The notes beneath the pieces are model-generated. The model did no database searches. It was not told where the DNA came from and saw only the letters and a program-made list of their open reading frames with translations. Shown here in pieces: positions 46,380 to 53,836 of a stretch of 64,000 nucleotides of DNA. Position 1 is the stretch's first letter; each line of letters opens with the position of its first letter. The stretch comes from Candidatus Schekmanbacteria bacterium (lineage in GTDB: Bacteria; CSSED10-310; JACPHN01). Made by a program: the position numbers and the translations under genes. The stretch spans positions 1 to 64,000 of the forward strand of contig JACPHN010000032.1 of assembly GCA_016188575.1 (NCBI GenBank). The letters are read 5' to 3'.

Positions 46380-47354
46380 CTACCGCTGCGACCCGCCGGT
46401 GCCTTGCACGAACCCCGCCAGCGACACCGTGTCATCGGTCGGCGAAAAACCTGCAGGAATCCCTTCCTGAACGTGCAAGACGCGCATCAGCACCGACAAC
46501 TGTCGCGTGTCGCTGGAGCCGCCCTTGGCGGCGGGGACAAACGATTGGTCACAGGTGACGGTGAGGTCCGCGCGCGGTTGCTCGCCGAGAAGCGCCGGCG
46601 GAACGGCTTTCATGAACACAAAGGTCCCATCCGGGGTGATGCTCGCCAGCTCCTGTCCATTGATCAGCAGCTTGACATTGGCCGGAGCCGCGAACTCCGT
46701 CGCCGGCACCGAGCCGGAAAGAAAGAGCACCGAGTCCCGCTTCGGGCGCGGCACGCTGGCGACGCTCTTGGGACCGGACCACCGCCAGTGATTGTCGGAG
46801 ACAGGATCGAACTCGGGTGCGTACCAGCCTTCCAGGAAGATCGTGTCCAGGCCCTCTATTGGCGTGAAGGGAATGATGCTGCGGGTCGCGGCCAGCGACG
46901 CTGGCACGGCGTCGCGGGAATCGCCGCCCGCAAGCTGGTAGCGAGCACCGTCTGGGACCGGATCATAGACGCCGACAACGACGGTCAGGCGGCTATCCAG
47001 CTCGAGAGGGGGCGCGTAGATCAGGCGGCGGTACGAGATCGTTGAGCCCGGCTTCCACTCCGACATGGGAGGAAGCGGCGCGTGATCGTCCTGAAACAGG
47101 ATGCGGCCGCGCTCGTCGACGAAGTGCGCGTACACCATGGCCTTGGGCGGTGGCGCAAAATCGGTGCCCGGGTGATGAATGTACTCGGCGACAAAGACGC
47201 CGGGGGTCTGGATTTGGTCGCTTGGCAGCTCGACTTTCGAGCTGAGGGCGAGCCGCGGTCCGCTCGGGGTCTCGCGCGACCGCTGGCAGGCCGACACCGT
47301 AACGGTGGCGAGGAGAAGCACGATGGGACCGTAAACGTGCCGCTGTGATCGCAT
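46380..47354 (-). CDS. Lipoprotein of unknown function
   Basis: The 324-residue protein starts with a lipoprotein signal (IVLLLATVTVSAC lipobox). The mature part is beta-rich and acidic-aromatic with no named domain: segments such as VFVAEYIHHPGTDFAPPPKA and FLEGWYAPEFDPVSDNHWRW may describe an extracellular carbohydrate- or protein-binding surface. It follows the tandem kinase gene by 111 bp and precedes the pseudouridine synthase gene by 9 bp on the same strand. I do not recognise the family. Confidence 0.78.
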   Translation of the reverse strand: MRSQRHVYGPIVLLLATVTVSACQRSRETPSGPRLALSSKVELPSDQIQTPGVFVAEYIHHPGTDFAPPPKAMVYAHFVDERGRILFQDDHAPLPPMSEWKPGSTISYRRLIYAPPLELDSRLTVVVGVYDPVPDGARYQLAGGDSRDAVPASLAATRSIIPFTPIEGLDTIFLEGWYAPEFDPVSDNHWRWSGPKSVASVPRPKRDSVLFLSGSVPATEFAAPANVKLLINGQELASITPDGTFVFMKAVPPALLGEQPRADLTVTCDQSFVPAAKGGSSDTRQLSVLMRVLHVQEGIPAGFSPTDDTVSLAGFVQGTGGSQR

Positions 47355-47465: not shown

Positions 47466-50400
47466 CTATTGGTTGAGCAGCGCCGCACGCACTCCGGCAA
47501 GGGCTTCGGACATGTGTTTTGCGGACTGGAAACGGCTAGTGGGGTCCTTTGCCACGGAGCGCAGGATGATCTGCTCGAGCTCGATCGGGAGGTCTGGGCG
47601 GAGCAGGCGCGGTTGCGCGGGAGTCTCCCGCAGGTGCTTCAGTGCCATCGACATTGCGCTTTCGGCGGTAAACGGCAGCTTTCCGGTGAAGGTCTCGAAC
47701 ATCGTAATGCCGACGCTGTAGAGGTCGGACTGCCCGGTCAGTGGGCGTCCTTCGACTTGCTCGGGGCTCATGTATTCCGGGGTACCGATGACGACTCCCG
47801 TGGTGGTGATGGCGCTGAGCGTTTGCACGGTGGCGATCCCAAAGTCGACGATGCGTGCGTTTTCCGCATCGTCGATCAGGATGTTCTGCGGCTTGATGTC
47901 GCGATGAATGATCCCGATCTTGTGCGCTGCCGCCAGCGCCTCGAGCACTTGCTGAAACCACCGCACCCCCTGCGCCAACGGCAGTCGGCCGTTCTTTGCG
48001 ACCAGATCCTTGAGCGACAGGCCAGGGATAATTTCCATGGTGATGAACTTGATTCCGTCGGCCTCGCCGAGATCGTAGATTTGCACGACGTTGGGGTGCT
48101 GGATCATCCGCGTGAGCTTGATTTCCCGTTTGAATCGGGTCAGCGCCTCGCCGTCCTCCGCGATGGCTGGTTTCAGCACCTTGATCGCGAGTTTCTCGTC
48201 AAGCTCGCGATCATGAGCGGCGTATACCCTGCCCATGCCGCCCTGGCCGAGGATGCCGGTAATCTCGTAGCGGCTACCGAGAAACGCGCCCACCTCCAGC
48301 GTCGACGGCTTCAGGGCGGCGATGGCGTCGTCCGCGGATTCGTATCGATCTTCGGGATTCCTGCTCAGGCACTGCATGGTCACCTTGCAGATGCGGATGG
48401 GCAGATCGGGAGCGATGGATTGAATGTCGGCCGGAGCGGGATGGGCGCTGTTGGCGGCGCTCCTGTCCACCGGGAACGGGAGCTTGCCGGTAAGAAACTC
48501 GTACATGACCACGCCGAAGGAAAAAAGGTCGCTGGCGGCGCTGATCGGCTTGCCGCCGACCTGTTCTGGAGAGACGTATGCCAGGTAGCGCGCGCCGTAG
48601 GGTGCGTCAACCAGATCGGACAGCCGTTCCGTGAGGCCGAAGTCGGTGATCTTGACCTCGCCGGTGGCGTCGATGAAGACATTCTCGGGTCGCAGATTGC
48701 CATGGACGACGCCGCGTGAGTGGGCAAACCCGAGCCCCGTGAGGAGCTGGGAAGCGACCTCGATCTGCGTCGTCACGGGGGTCGCTTGCCCAGACGAGAT
48801 GAGGTCGCGAAGAGATGGGCCCTTGACGTAGTCCATGGCGATGAATTTCTTTTGCCGATACGTTCCCGTGTCAAAGATCGTGACCACGTTGCGATGCGAC
48901 AATCGCGACGCGTTGCGGGCGTTGGCAATGAACCGCTCTACCTTGTGCGGCTCTTGCATCAAGCGGTCGTTGAGCAGCTTGAGGGCAAGTCGGCGATCGA
49001 GCAGGTTATCGCGAACGAGAAACACGGTGCCTTGGCCGCCGGAGCCAAGTTCTTGCTCGATCTCATACCGCGAATCGGCGGAGCTCTCGGTAGCCTGGAG
49101 CCGGCGATCGGTGTCGGTGACTCTGGGTGGCGTGCCATCGGCTGCGGAGCGTTCGCGGGCAAGCACCGCGAGCCGTTGGCGAATGGCCGCGAGTCTGGCG
49201 CTGGCGTCCTTGTACGCGTAATCGTGCGAGAGCACGCGAGCGAAGGCGGCAGCGGCGTCTCTCAGCCGTTTTGCCTGCTCCAACGCCAACCCGAACAGAT
49301 AATTGAGCTCGAGCCAGTAGGTGGGGTCGTCGCCGGCAACGGTGGCCGCGGCCTGGAGCTTCTCAATGGCGGCTGCCGGCAGCTTCTTGCGGACGAAGAG
49401 ATGACCGAGCAGCAAACAGGCGGGGACGTAGCTCGCGTCGCTCTTCTCCAGCGATTGCAGCGCGGTGATGGCCTGGTCGTCCTCGCCCATTTCGGTCCAC
49501 ATGGAAGCCGCGGCGAGGGGATTCCCCGAGCGTTCAAACATCGCCGCGGCGGCGGCGAAGTCCTTTGCGGTCTTGTAGAGCTCCGCGGCTGCCGGCAAGT
49601 CACCCGCTTCCTGCATCATCCGCGCGGCATCTGTGGTCGCCCCAATACGGGCGTAGAGATCTCCGGCGCGTGCAAACTGCCCGGCCGACTCCCAGGCTGA
49701 CGCGGCCTGCTTGAGGTCGCCGACGGCGTCGAAGCACTCGCCCGCGCGAGCGAACTCACCGAGCTCCACGTAGATCGGAGCCGCGGCGTGATACTCTGCG
49801 CAGCCGTAGAGAACGTCGGCGTAAACCTTGCGAAACCGCATTAGACTGGGCGCATCCAGCCTGCGCGGGTCGACGGTATTGAGCAGCCGCCGGGCCTCTT
49901 CGGGTCGCCCGCCCTTGACGTAACATTCGATCGCCTCGAGCGAGCGGCCGAGCTTTTCCAGGGCGCGTCCCGCGGGAAAGTACTCCTTCACGGCCAGGAG
50001 AAGTTGCGCCGCCTCTTTGAAATGCTGCTCCTTGTAGAACAAGTCGGCGGCCATCTTGCCGAACCGGCGCCGCTTGTCCGCCAGGGTCGCGGCGTCGTAG
50101 CTGTCCGCAGCCGGTTCGGCGTTGAGCTCTCCGCGGTGGAGCCCGTCGAGGAGGCGGGCCGCACGGAGGTAGTGCCCGCACTTCACGTACAGCATCGCGG
50201 CGCGCTCGTGGCAGTTGGCCCGCTCATATTGCTCGGCGGCCTCCAGCGCCAAGCCGGCGCGTTCAAGATGCCCTGCGGCCTGAAAAAAGTCGCCGGTTCC
50301 GATCATCATCCGCGCGGCTTCGACCTTGTCCCCCGCTGCGAGAAACATCTTCGCGGCCCGTGGAAAATCCCCGGCGCGCTGGTAGTGCCGCGCCGCTTCG

Positions 50401-50570
50401 CGGTTATTTCCGAGCCGCTCCAGCAGGCGCGCCGCGAGAATGTCCTGGCCCGCCTGCCGATACATCTCAAGCGCCTCCTCCGTCTCGCCCGCCAGGTCGA
50501 ACAGGTCGCCCGCTCTCATGTAGTCGCCGCGCCGCCGACAGCGCCGCGCTTCGCGCAGAAAATTCGGCAT
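47466..50570 (-). CDS. Tandem pseudokinase-kinase with N-terminal helical repeats
   Basis: The 1034-residue protein begins with about 470 residues of TPR/SNAP-like helical repeats (RAGDLFDLAGETEEALEMYR and similar). A first kinase domain follows with GSGGQGTV, LALKLL and DFG, but its catalytic loop reads HGNLRPEN: the catalytic Asp is Asn625, so it is probably a pseudokinase. A second, complete kinase domain comes next: GQGGMGRV, LAIKVLK, HRDIKPQN with Asp891, and VDFGIA, then MSPEQVEGRPL. This order of inactive then active kinase resembles JAK-type regulation. The ATG at 50570 has GGTGGG upstream. It is the first gene of the lipoprotein-rluB-pab unit. Confidence 0.92.
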   Translation of the reverse strand: MPNFLREARRCRRRGDYMRAGDLFDLAGETEEALEMYRQAGQDILAARLLERLGNNREAARHYQRAGDFPRAAKMFLAAGDKVEAARMMIGTGDFFQAAGHLERAGLALEAAEQYERANCHERAAMLYVKCGHYLRAARLLDGLHRGELNAEPAADSYDAATLADKRRRFGKMAADLFYKEQHFKEAAQLLLAVKEYFPAGRALEKLGRSLEAIECYVKGGRPEEARRLLNTVDPRRLDAPSLMRFRKVYADVLYGCAEYHAAAPIYVELGEFARAGECFDAVGDLKQAASAWESAGQFARAGDLYARIGATTDAARMMQEAGDLPAAAELYKTAKDFAAAAAMFERSGNPLAAASMWTEMGEDDQAITALQSLEKSDASYVPACLLLGHLFVRKKLPAAAIEKLQAAATVAGDDPTYWLELNYLFGLALEQAKRLRDAAAAFARVLSHDYAYKDASARLAAIRQRLAVLARERSAADGTPPRVTDTDRRLQATESSADSRYEIEQELGSGGQGTVFLVRDNLLDRRLALKLLNDRLMQEPHKVERFIANARNASRLSHRNVVTIFDTGTYRQKKFIAMDYVKGPSLRDLISSGQATPVTTQIEVASQLLTGLGFAHSRGVVHGNLRPENVFIDATGEVKITDFGLTERLSDLVDAPYGARYLAYVSPEQVGGKPISAASDLFSFGVVMYEFLTGKLPFPVDRSAANSAHPAPADIQSIAPDLPIRICKVTMQCLSRNPEDRYESADDAIAALKPSTLEVGAFLGSRYEITGILGQGGMGRVYAAHDRELDEKLAIKVLKPAIAEDGEALTRFKREIKLTRMIQHPNVVQIYDLGEADGIKFITMEIIPGLSLKDLVAKNGRLPLAQGVRWFQQVLEALAAAHKIGIIHRDIKPQNILIDDAENARIVDFGIATVQTLSAITTTGVVIGTPEYMSPEQVEGRPLTGQSDLYSVGITMFETFTGKLPFTAESAMSMALKHLRETPAQPRLLRPDLPIELEQIILRSVAKDPTSRFQSAKHMSEALAGVRAALLNQ

Positions 50571-50763: not shown

Positions 50764-51708
50764 GTGACCAGTTTCTCATCATCTCCATCTTTCCAGCCCC
50801 GGCGCAGCCGCTGGCCGCGCGGCACTGCCCCGCTAGCGGCCGGCCTGCTGATCGTCGCCCTGGGCGGGCTTCTCGCCACCTGTGGCCTGGTGCATCGTAA
50901 CCACGTCTTCTGGAAGTTGCGCTCAGAGACCGCCACTCTTTACCTGCTCGGATCCATTCACTTCGCCTCGGCCAGCATGTTCCCCCTGGATTCGGTCATC
51001 GAGAAGGCGTACGCGGAAAGCGACGTACTGGTGGTCGAGGCCAACGTGCTCAAGTACGACCAGGCAGCCATGCAACAGATGATCACCTTCCACGCGGTCG
51101 CCACCGATCAGCGCCGGCTATCCGAGCGCCTCGGTGATCCAGATCTCTATCGCCGGCTGCAAGTAGCCTGTGCCGAGTATAACGTGGACTTGGAGCTGAT
51201 GCAGAGAATGGAGATCTGGTTCGTCGCCATCTCTCTCGCAGCTCAGGCCATCCAACAGCTCGGTTACAGCCCCGAGCATGGCATCGACATGTACTTCCTC
51301 AGGCGCGCCATTGCCGAAAAGGACATCGCGGAAGTCGAAGGCATGGACGAGCAGATGCGCCTGTTCGACTTCCTGCCGCGGGCTCAGCAACTCCTGTTGC
51401 TCGATTACACGCTACGCGATCTTGGATCCTTACCTGTGGAGCTGCCTCTGCTCATCAGTGCTTGGGAGACGGGAAACGTGGCGTCGATCGAGCAAAGCGT
51501 GTTTCGGCAGCTCCGCGAAGCACCGCCGCTGCAGCCGATCTTCGAAGTCGTCTTCAAGAAACGCAACCAGAGCATGGCCGACCGCATTCGCCGCCTCATG
51601 CTCAAGTCGCACACGTACTTCGCGGTGGTGGGCGCCGGCCACCTCGTGGGCGCCGACAGCCTTCTCGAGCTGCTCACCCGCAAGGGTTACCAGGTCGAGC
51701 AGCTCTGA
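50764..51708 (+). CDS. TraB/GumN-family protein, membrane-anchored
   Basis: The 314-residue protein has an N-terminal hydrophobic segment (APLAAGLLIVALGGLLATCG) and the TraB/GumN (Tiki-like) fold: LLGSIHFASASMFPL at the first conserved His, then VVGAGHLVGADSLLELL near the C-terminus. Such proteins are thought to be metal-dependent peptidases or regulators, mostly periplasmic. The GTG start at 50764 has GAGG 9 nt upstream. It is on the same strand as, and 93 bp before, the MoxR-VWA pair. Confidence 0.85.
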   Translation: MTSFSSSPSFQPRRSRWPRGTAPLAAGLLIVALGGLLATCGLVHRNHVFWKLRSETATLYLLGSIHFASASMFPLDSVIEKAYAESDVLVVEANVLKYDQAAMQQMITFHAVATDQRRLSERLGDPDLYRRLQVACAEYNVDLELMQRMEIWFVAISLAAQAIQQLGYSPEHGIDMYFLRRAIAEKDIAEVEGMDEQMRLFDFLPRAQQLLLLDYTLRDLGSLPVELPLLISAWETGNVASIEQSVFRQLREAPPLQPIFEVVFKKRNQSMADRIRRLMLKSHTYFAVVGAGHLVGADSLLELLTRKGYQVEQL

Positions 51709-51801
51709 GCCTCTATCCGCACGACCCCGCGGCATAGCTTCCATCCCTCGGGCGAGGCCGATTGCCACGAACCATGAATCGAAAAGGACAAGCAACCGAT
51801 C

Positions 51802-52623
51802 ATGCACGTTTTCCGCGGAAGTGACACATACGTCCTGGACGACGAGCTCGCCGAGATCGTCAACATTAGCATTCGTCTCGAAATGCCCTTGCTTCTTAAA
51901 GGGGAGCCAGGAACGGGGAAAACACTGCTCGCCCACGAAATCGCGCGTTCGCTGCAAGCATGCCTCCATGTCCTCAACGTCAAGAGCTCCATGAAGGCCG
52001 TGGAAGCTCTGTACCGATATGATACGCTGACCAGGCTAAACGACTCGCGCTTCGGAGACAGCCGGCGCGACGTCAGCAACATCAAAGACTATATTCGCAT
52101 GGGCAAGATTGGGCAGGCCTTTACCAGTGATGTCCGCGCCGTCTTGCTCATTGACGAAATCGACAAAGCCGAATCAGATTTCCAGGATGACCTGCTCGAC
52201 GTGCTCGATCAGATGACGTTCGATATTCTGGAGATCGACGAGACCGTCCAGGCGCGCCATCGACCGATCATCATTATCACTTCGAACGCAAAGCGCGACC
52301 TGTCCGACCCGTTCCTGGGGCGGTGCAACTTCCACCATATCGCCTTTCCCGACAAATCGATGATGCAGCGCATCGTGCGCGCGCACTTCCCGGATCTGGA
52401 GCAGCAGCTCGTCGATCGCGCGATCGAGCTGTTCTTTCGCATCCGCGGGCTGGAAGACGTCGAGAAGAAACCGGCAACTCGCGAGCTCATCAACTGGCTG
52501 CGGGCCCTGACCCTTGCGGACGTCGATGCCGAGCAACTGCGCAGCCGCGTCCCCTTCCTGGGAGTGCTCGTCAAGAAATCCAACGACCTCGCCGTCGCGC
52601 GCCAGCGTCTGGGCGTGCGCTGA
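51802..52623 (+). CDS. MoxR-type AAA+ ATPase
   Basis: The 273-residue ATPase has Walker A GEPGTGKT at 34-41, Walker B VLLIDEIDKA, and sensor-1 Asn and the arginine-finger region (TSNAKRDLSDPFLGRC). MoxR ATPases act with VWA proteins as chaperones that insert metals or assemble complexes. The VWA partner begins 13 bp downstream, and a TraB-type gene lies upstream. The C-terminal lid is shorter than in canonical MoxR. Confidence 0.9.
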   Translation: MHVFRGSDTYVLDDELAEIVNISIRLEMPLLLKGEPGTGKTLLAHEIARSLQACLHVLNVKSSMKAVEALYRYDTLTRLNDSRFGDSRRDVSNIKDYIRMGKIGQAFTSDVRAVLLIDEIDKAESDFQDDLLDVLDQMTFDILEIDETVQARHRPIIIITSNAKRDLSDPFLGRCNFHHIAFPDKSMMQRIVRAHFPDLEQQLVDRAIELFFRIRGLEDVEKKPATRELINWLRALTLADVDAEQLRSRVPFLGVLVKKSNDLAVARQRLGVR

Positions 52624-52636
52624 GCCGCCAACACCC

Positions 52637-53836
52637 GTGTTCATCGACTTTTTCGAGCGATTGAGAGAGGCGGGCATTCCCGTCAGTCCCACCGAGCTGC
52701 TGCGCTTGCATCGGGGACTTTCCCTCGACCTGGCGCGCTCGAATCTGGATGCGTTCTATTTGCTGGCGCGCACCGTGCTCGTCAAGCATGAGAAGTATTT
52801 CGACGCTTACGACCGCGTATTTCTCGAACACTTTCGCGGCGTCGAGCTGGCCGGGGAGGAGCTTCTGGACAAGCTCGACCAGGCCATCCGCGACTGGCTC
52901 GACGACCCGCGCGGGCTGGATGAGGAGATGCTCGCGCGCCTCCGCGCCGAGATCGGCGCCGAGGCCATGGGTCTGGATGAGCTCCGCCGGTTGTTTCTAC
53001 AGCGCCTCGCCGAGCAGTCCGAGCGGCACGATGGTGGGAACCGCTGGATCGGAACCGGCGGAACGTCGCCTTTTGGTCACTCCGGTTTCCATCCTGGAGG
53101 GTTCCGCATCGGCGGCGGTGGCGGCGGGCGCAGCGCCATCAAAGTGGCCGGCGAGCGGCGCTACAAGGACTACTCGGCCTATGGCGAGATGGGATCGGGG
53201 GCCATCAAGGAGGCACTGGCTCGCTTGCGCCATCTGGTCGAACACGGTGTGGCCGACGAGCTGGACCTGCCGGAAACGCTGCGGCGCCTTGACCGTACCG
53301 GCGGTGACATCGAGATCGTGCTGCGACCCGGCAAGCGGAATCGGGTGCGCGTGCTGCTGCTCATCGATAACGGCGGCTGGTCGATGGACCCGTATGTGGT
53401 TCTGGTCAGCCGCCTTTTCGCGGCCGCCAGCTCCTGCTTTCGCCAGCTCTCCATCTATTACTTCCACAATTGCATCTATCAAACAGTCTGGTCAGACCCG
53501 CCGCGGACGCGACCGGTGGCCACGCTCGAGGTCATGCAGGCGCTTCCGGAGGCGAAAGTATTCGTCGTTGGCGATGCCGCGATGAGCCCGACCGAGCTCT
53601 TCTGGCCGGATGGCTGCATCGAATGGACCATGCGCAATGAAGAAGCCGGCAAGGTGTGGCTGGAACGTCTGCGTGATCGCTTTCCCGCTGCCGTCTGGCT
53701 CAACCCTCTGGAGCGCGCGCACTGGGCACGAGCCTATGGTCATCGCACAGTCGCGGAGATCGGCAAGATCTTTCCCATGTTCGACCTCACTCTCGACGGC
53801 TTGACGGCCGCAATCGAGCATTTGCAGCAGCGGTGA
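52637..53836 (+). CDS. VWA-domain protein, CoxE-like
   Basis: The 399-residue protein has an N-terminal helical region and a C-terminal von Willebrand A-type domain of the CoxE kind. The metal-adhesion motif reads LIDNGGWSM instead of DxSxS, so Ser residues are partly replaced by Gly. A glycine-rich linker (FRIGGGGGGRSAIKV) separates the halves. The GTG start at 52637 follows the MoxR stop by 13 bp, so the two are co-translated. No carbon monoxide dehydrogenase genes are present, so a CoxE role in CO metabolism is unlikely; a MoxR-VWA assembly pair is the safer call. Confidence 0.85.
   Translation: MFIDFFERLREAGIPVSPTELLRLHRGLSLDLARSNLDAFYLLARTVLVKHEKYFDAYDRVFLEHFRGVELAGEELLDKLDQAIRDWLDDPRGLDEEMLARLRAEIGAEAMGLDELRRLFLQRLAEQSERHDGGNRWIGTGGTSPFGHSGFHPGGFRIGGGGGGRSAIKVAGERRYKDYSAYGEMGSGAIKEALARLRHLVEHGVADELDLPETLRRLDRTGGDIEIVLRPGKRNRVRVLLLIDNGGWSMDPYVVLVSRLFAAASSCFRQLSIYYFHNCIYQTVWSDPPRTRPVATLEVMQALPEAKVFVVGDAAMSPTELFWPDGCIEWTMRNEEAGKVWLERLRDRFPAAVWLNPLERAHWARAYGHRTVAEIGKIFPMFDLTLDGLTAAIEHLQQR

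Follow-up and report, generated by a model that had tools for sequence, protein, structure and literature searches.

Does a bacterial protein with an inactive kinase domain directly in front of an active one use the first domain to control the second? This question is raised by a single gene (Table 1) of the window, that is, the whole stretch of 64,000 nucleotides of Candidatus Schekmanbacteria DNA analysed here. The initial annotation had read the gene as a tandem of pseudokinase and kinase behind a helical region and had suggested allosteric control as in JAK kinases. Bacterial pseudokinases have been catalogued and, according to a 2025 review of their families (PMC12599244), a mechanism is known for hardly any of them. 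To our reading of the locus contribute the catalytic residues of both domains, a homologue from another family of the phylum, related kinases without the first domain, and predicted structures.

Table 1. Features of the tandem kinase locus, in positions of the window
Feature	Position	Strand	Description and evidence
Tandem pseudokinase-kinase gene	47466..50570	(-)	1034 aa, ATG start; open reading frame and full-length homologue (34% identity)
N-terminal alpha-solenoid, residues 1-478	49137..50570	(-)	~31 helices, 13-residue helix period, TPR-like; periodicity, AlphaFold2, weak Pfam TPR/SNAP matches
PK1, pseudokinase domain, residues 501-755	48306..49070	(-)	Pkinase 145.1 bits, modelled kinase fold, motif losses
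PK1 catalytic loop HGNLRPEN, residues 623-630	48681..48704	(-)	motif reading; HRNLCPEN in the homologue
PK2, canonical Ser/Thr kinase domain, residues 767-1020	47511..48272	(-)	Pkinase 181.3 bits, motifs, VIA-align Z 34 to PknA/PknB
Downstream neighbour gene	46380..47354	(-)	324 aa, lipobox-like signal (VSAC), no Pfam family; adjoins the tandem kinase on the same strand, homologue placed alike in the second genome

Domain layout and catalytic residues

The order described initially, with a helical region followed first by an inactive and then directly by an active kinase, was recovered with the domain boundaries given in Table 1. Pfam Pkinase matched the protein twice, each time above the cut-off of 31.7 bits, so that each domain taken by itself qualifies as Hanks-type, and in the AlphaFold2 models the secondary-structure elements of both PK1 and PK2 follow one another as in a bilobal kinase. 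The N-terminal region is modelled as all-helical with pLDDT mostly around 90, and its 13-residue period is visible from a lag-13 identity of 0.182, compared to 0.092 ± 0.013 in shuffles. In Pfam, this region returned weak TPR-like matches of other families and nothing more.

Catalytic positions were read from an alignment of 32 kinase domains. PK1 retains the Gly loop GSGGQG (509-514), Lys531 in beta3, Asn630 in the catalytic loop and D643-F644-G645, while in the catalytic loop itself, H623-G624-N625-L626-R627-P628-E629-N630, the HRD aspartate is replaced by Asn625 (codon AAT, 48698-48696 on the minus strand). The motifs listed in the initial annotation, a Gly loop, Lys and DFG together with HGN at 623-625, could thus be reproduced, but the list of losses was incomplete: the alphaC Glu is replaced by Asn550, the HRDxK Lys by Arg627, and the P+1 loop is without its GT-Thr (RYLAYVSPE compared to GTPEYMSPE). 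PK2 is, as had been stated, complete, being canonical at all positions compared, with Lys797, alphaC Glu816, HRDIKPQN at 889-896, DFG at 909-911 and GTPEYMSPE. If a pseudokinase is recognised in sequence by the loss of at least one of the VAIK Lys, HRD Asp and DFG Asp, PK1 is one through Asn625. Both the HRD Asp and the DFG Asp were present in all 105 other kinase domains sampled from the window genome, a sample taken among the Pkinase matches listed, about 15-20 lower-scoring members of which had unreadable N-lobe motifs. Phosphate transfer by a kinase domain without catalytic Asp, alphaC Glu and HRDxK Lys is inefficient, and the Lys, loop Asn and DFG Asp of kinases are the residues that hold nucleotide and cation. 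Judged by these residues, PK1 appears to be catalytically dead and probably binds nucleotide, while PK2 is apparently active.

It should be noted that the gene is expected to be misnamed as a PASTA kinase by automatic annotation, since the NCBIfam model of this class is passed with 595 bits against a cut-off of 450, the two kinase domains summing up. We rejected an assignment to the PASTA kinases (Stk1/PknB) because no PASTA domain is found in Pfam, the protein ends with PK2, and the NCBIfam score is a two-domain artefact. A role as anti-phage defence kinase (PADLOC PD-T4-6, MAD6) was likewise discarded, the matches being those of a generic kinase with two stretches and not specific. Other kinase arrangements occur in the same genome. 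Two loci (L009, G000:C217, ~40-44 kb; L010, G000:C98, ~26-30 kb) encode paralogous proteins of 1.3-1.4 kaa with two tandem kinase domains, both catalytically intact (HRD, then HFD or HLD) and followed by an apparent ATPase and a helical-repeat region. At a third (L008, G000:C216:26000-33000), the gene of a sensor-type transmembrane kinase is followed directly, on the same strand, by a small stand-alone kinase gene.

Conservation of the arrangement and origin of PK1

Our collection of the phylum comprised eight genomes, each of a different genus. With the whole protein as query, a single full-length homologue was found (G006:C45, L012), which belongs to another family of the same small phylum and displays the same solenoid-PK1-PK2 architecture. 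Its PK1 repeats all four losses, with Asn again at the position of the HRD Asp, Lys for the alphaC Glu, Cys for the HRDxK Lys and the GT-Thr gone, and it keeps the nucleotide-contacting Lys, loop Asn and DFG Asp as PK1 of the window protein does. It is more eroded than the latter, lacking the APE Glu and showing a degenerate activation segment, and the two PK1 domains share 28.8% identity compared to 47.5% for the two PK2 domains. The initial annotation had named HRD in the first domain of close homologues as the sign of a local error at Asn625. The sole full-length homologue has HRN instead, and this together with the three further losses in PK1 rules out a sequencing error. Since the architecture is kept in a distantly related species, the arrangement of a dead before a live kinase is probably a real regulatory device.

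Two domain-wide searches, covering 386 and 385 genomes that were mostly the same (E 1e-100 and 1e-95, the best two candidates per genome being scored), returned no further tandem homologue. A search of genome contigs gave one match, a single kinase from Nitrospiria, and no homologue of the whole protein; plasmids yielded single kinases only, none of which reached 80% query coverage.

The six other genomes of the phylum encode the same TPR-like solenoid with a single C-terminal kinase of the PK2 type (L020-L030, L040, L041). These proteins align with PK2, the PK1 stretch being absent, and their kinase domains are intact, HRD or HSD being kept along with the remaining catalytic residues. PK1 can therefore be considered an extra domain. 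A tree of the domains places the two PK2 domains of the tandem proteins among the single-kinase solenoid kinases and both PK1 domains on long, unresolved branches, with end branches of 1.43 and 2.97 compared to 0.70 and 0.53 for PK2, i.e. about two to five times longer. A recent duplication of PK2 in place was rejected, since the AU test does not allow PK1 and PK2 of the window protein as sisters (p 0.0046); one origin of both PK1 domains was not rejected (p 0.26). As the identity between the two PK1 domains is not above that of PK1 to ordinary kinases, their common origin rests on position, shared losses and synteny, not on the tree. Taking the sequences of the relatives into account, the most likely history is that PK1 entered between solenoid and kinase, or that the other proteins have lost it.

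The long branches and the low identity between the PK1 domains, as well as the further erosion in the homologue, are what would be expected if PK1 were a domain added to a solenoid kinase and now decaying, losing its function without acquiring a role. We consider this improbable, since two genera from separate families retain an open frame with a recognisable PK1, both have lost the same catalytic and kept the same nucleotide positions, and the model of the window protein shows a full kinase fold.

Synteny concerns the lipoprotein-like gene downstream, which is a conserved neighbour of the tandem kinase in both genomes that have one. In the second genome, its homologue follows the tandem kinase at a distance of 13 bases, is 26% identical and carries an N-terminal membrane segment, and neither of the two neighbour proteins has a Pfam match. 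The gene is not exclusive to the tandem kinase, since each of the eight genomes of the phylum has the family (46380-47354 of the window; L142-L151), and six of them encode no tandem kinase. Several genomes have it next to hpt and a second lipoprotein gene. Just upstream of the tandem kinase, the second genome has a gene with a cNMP-binding domain, which is not at that place in the window. There, a TraB/PrgY gene divergent from the kinase and then a MoxR-like AAA ATPase gene occupy 50764-53836, together with an open reading frame that overlaps the ATPase gene and may encode a vWA-type partner. Counts of SpoIIE phosphatases showed nothing specific.

Proposed control of PK2 and competing roles of PK1

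We propose, with a probability of roughly 0.55, that the protein is a signal-gated Ser/Thr kinase in which PK1 links engagement of the solenoid to the activity of PK2. The tandem kinase would be a cytosolic Hanks-type enzyme, the solenoid would bind a partner or assemble the protein, and PK1, catalytically dead but probably still able to bind nucleotide, would couple the solenoid to PK2. The latter would be the sole catalytic domain, its activity blocked or sustained by PK1 until engagement of the solenoid. A coupling element is favoured by the position of PK1 between solenoid and kinase, by the short linker to PK2, which is gapless between the window protein and its homologue, and by conservation. 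PK1 would act on PK2 allosterically, with either sign, and its likeliest function, by inference, would be to gate PK2. The solenoid may serve as the sensor, and the exported 324-aa protein may be linked to the tandem kinase.

PK1 could instead be a scaffold that offers a docking site to a substrate, to a phosphatase or to another molecule of the same protein and exerts no allosteric control on PK2. Such roles have precedents, the bacterial pseudokinase EssB/YukC working by scaffolding and dimerisation (PMC12599244) and PK1 of obscurin being an inactive scaffold within a tandem (PMC10129394). Furthermore, the models predict no orientation of PK1 relative to PK2, the pTM of AlphaFold2 being 0.41 for the whole protein and 0.53 for the PK1-PK2 pair. 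A pure scaffold, however, would have no need of the nucleotide-contacting Lys, loop Asn and DFG Asp that PK1 keeps in both species, and its place behind the solenoid, joined to the kinase by a short linker, also speaks against it, rendering this role unlikely, but worth weighing. That PK1 is an atypical active kinase or another ATP-using enzyme relying on other residues would fit the retained Lys, Asn and DFG Asp and the weak or different chemistry of some pseudokinases (JAK2 JH2, SelO and SidJ: PMC4718504, PMC12599244), but is highly improbable, since catalytic base, alphaC Glu, HRDxK Lys and P+1 Thr are all lost in both homologues and no family of SelO or SidJ type is among the profile matches.

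Comparison with known kinases and pseudokinases

A dead kinase domain before a live one is already known in bacteria, so the arrangement is not unprecedented. PglW has two kinase domains with a predicted ATP site only in the second (PMC4365076), and in three PglW loci, one of them from the window genome, the degenerate domain reads HRA or HRS with no DFG, and the active one reads HRDIKPDN. Both PglW and the window protein thus combine, in a single chain, a degenerate kinase domain with an active Hanks-type kinase behind it. In contrast, PglW carries an N-terminal NERD domain, whereas the window protein has a solenoid and no NERD, and the first domain of PglW is much more degraded than PK1. The window protein scored 136.9 bits with the NCBIfam PglW model (BREX type 2), for which the cut-off is 990. 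The PglW of BREX type 2 in the same genome (G000:C47:5168-9319, L157; 1482 bits) is unrelated to the tandem kinase. The solenoid, the absence of NERD and the far better kept pseudokinase set the window protein apart from PglW. The 2025 review (PMC12599244) lists named bacterial pseudokinase families (ActPs1-3, GLW, CP1, DYD, DLHK) with the motif losses specific to each; neither a fusion to an active kinase nor HGN or HRN is described in the available part of it, and we met no earlier description of such a solenoid-pseudokinase-kinase in the open-access literature consulted.

In its fold, PK2 matches mycobacterial PknB and PknA (Z ~34 over 254-268 residues, 36-39% identity), which differ from the window protein in having one kinase domain and neither pseudokinase nor solenoid. 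PknB is also the solved chain whose sequence is most similar to PK1 (E 9e-42).

The comparison with JAK kinases is one of mechanism, an analogy that does not imply descent. In JAK JH2, HGN replaces HRD, a change that marks these domains (PMC6287396), the Lys-Glu bridge is lost, and nucleotide is bound with the help of the retained Asn (PMC6287396, PMC4718504). The window protein likewise places a pseudokinase directly before an active kinase, with HGN, a lost alphaC Glu bridge and the catalytic-loop Asn kept. For both predicted models, the best Foldseek match was the pseudokinase-kinase chain of TYK2 (4oli). Superposition on 4oli succeeds domain by domain, while the whole-chain rmsd is 20 A, to be read with the uncertain orientation of PK1 and PK2. 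The suggestion of JAK-like allosteric control is thus supported in part, by motif and fold match, the models leaving the orientation of the two domains unfixed; the observation behind it is confirmed and extended, and the interpretation is a plausible hypothesis.

It is a tentative idea, which we hold to be somewhat doubtful, that bacteria evolved on their own a counterpart of JAK regulation, in which a nucleotide-binding pseudokinase, placed behind a ligand-binding solenoid and in front of a Ser/Thr kinase, would be the allosteric switch of the latter, with the same HGN solution. If true, gating by a pseudokinase in cis would have had a separate origin in bacteria. The natural relatives that lack just the dead domain offer a clean comparison of solenoid kinases with and without pseudokinase, and the idea of such gating, taken from eukaryotes, becomes testable on an independent evolutionary case. 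The window protein differs from JAK in several respects: FERM and SH2 precede JH2 in JAK, whereas the window protein has an alpha-solenoid and neither of the two in Pfam; the active domain of JAK is a tyrosine kinase, whereas PK2 is a PknB-like Ser/Thr kinase; and DFG is intact in PK1. The window protein resembles the JAK JH2-JH1 pair in motif and order, but is not a JAK.
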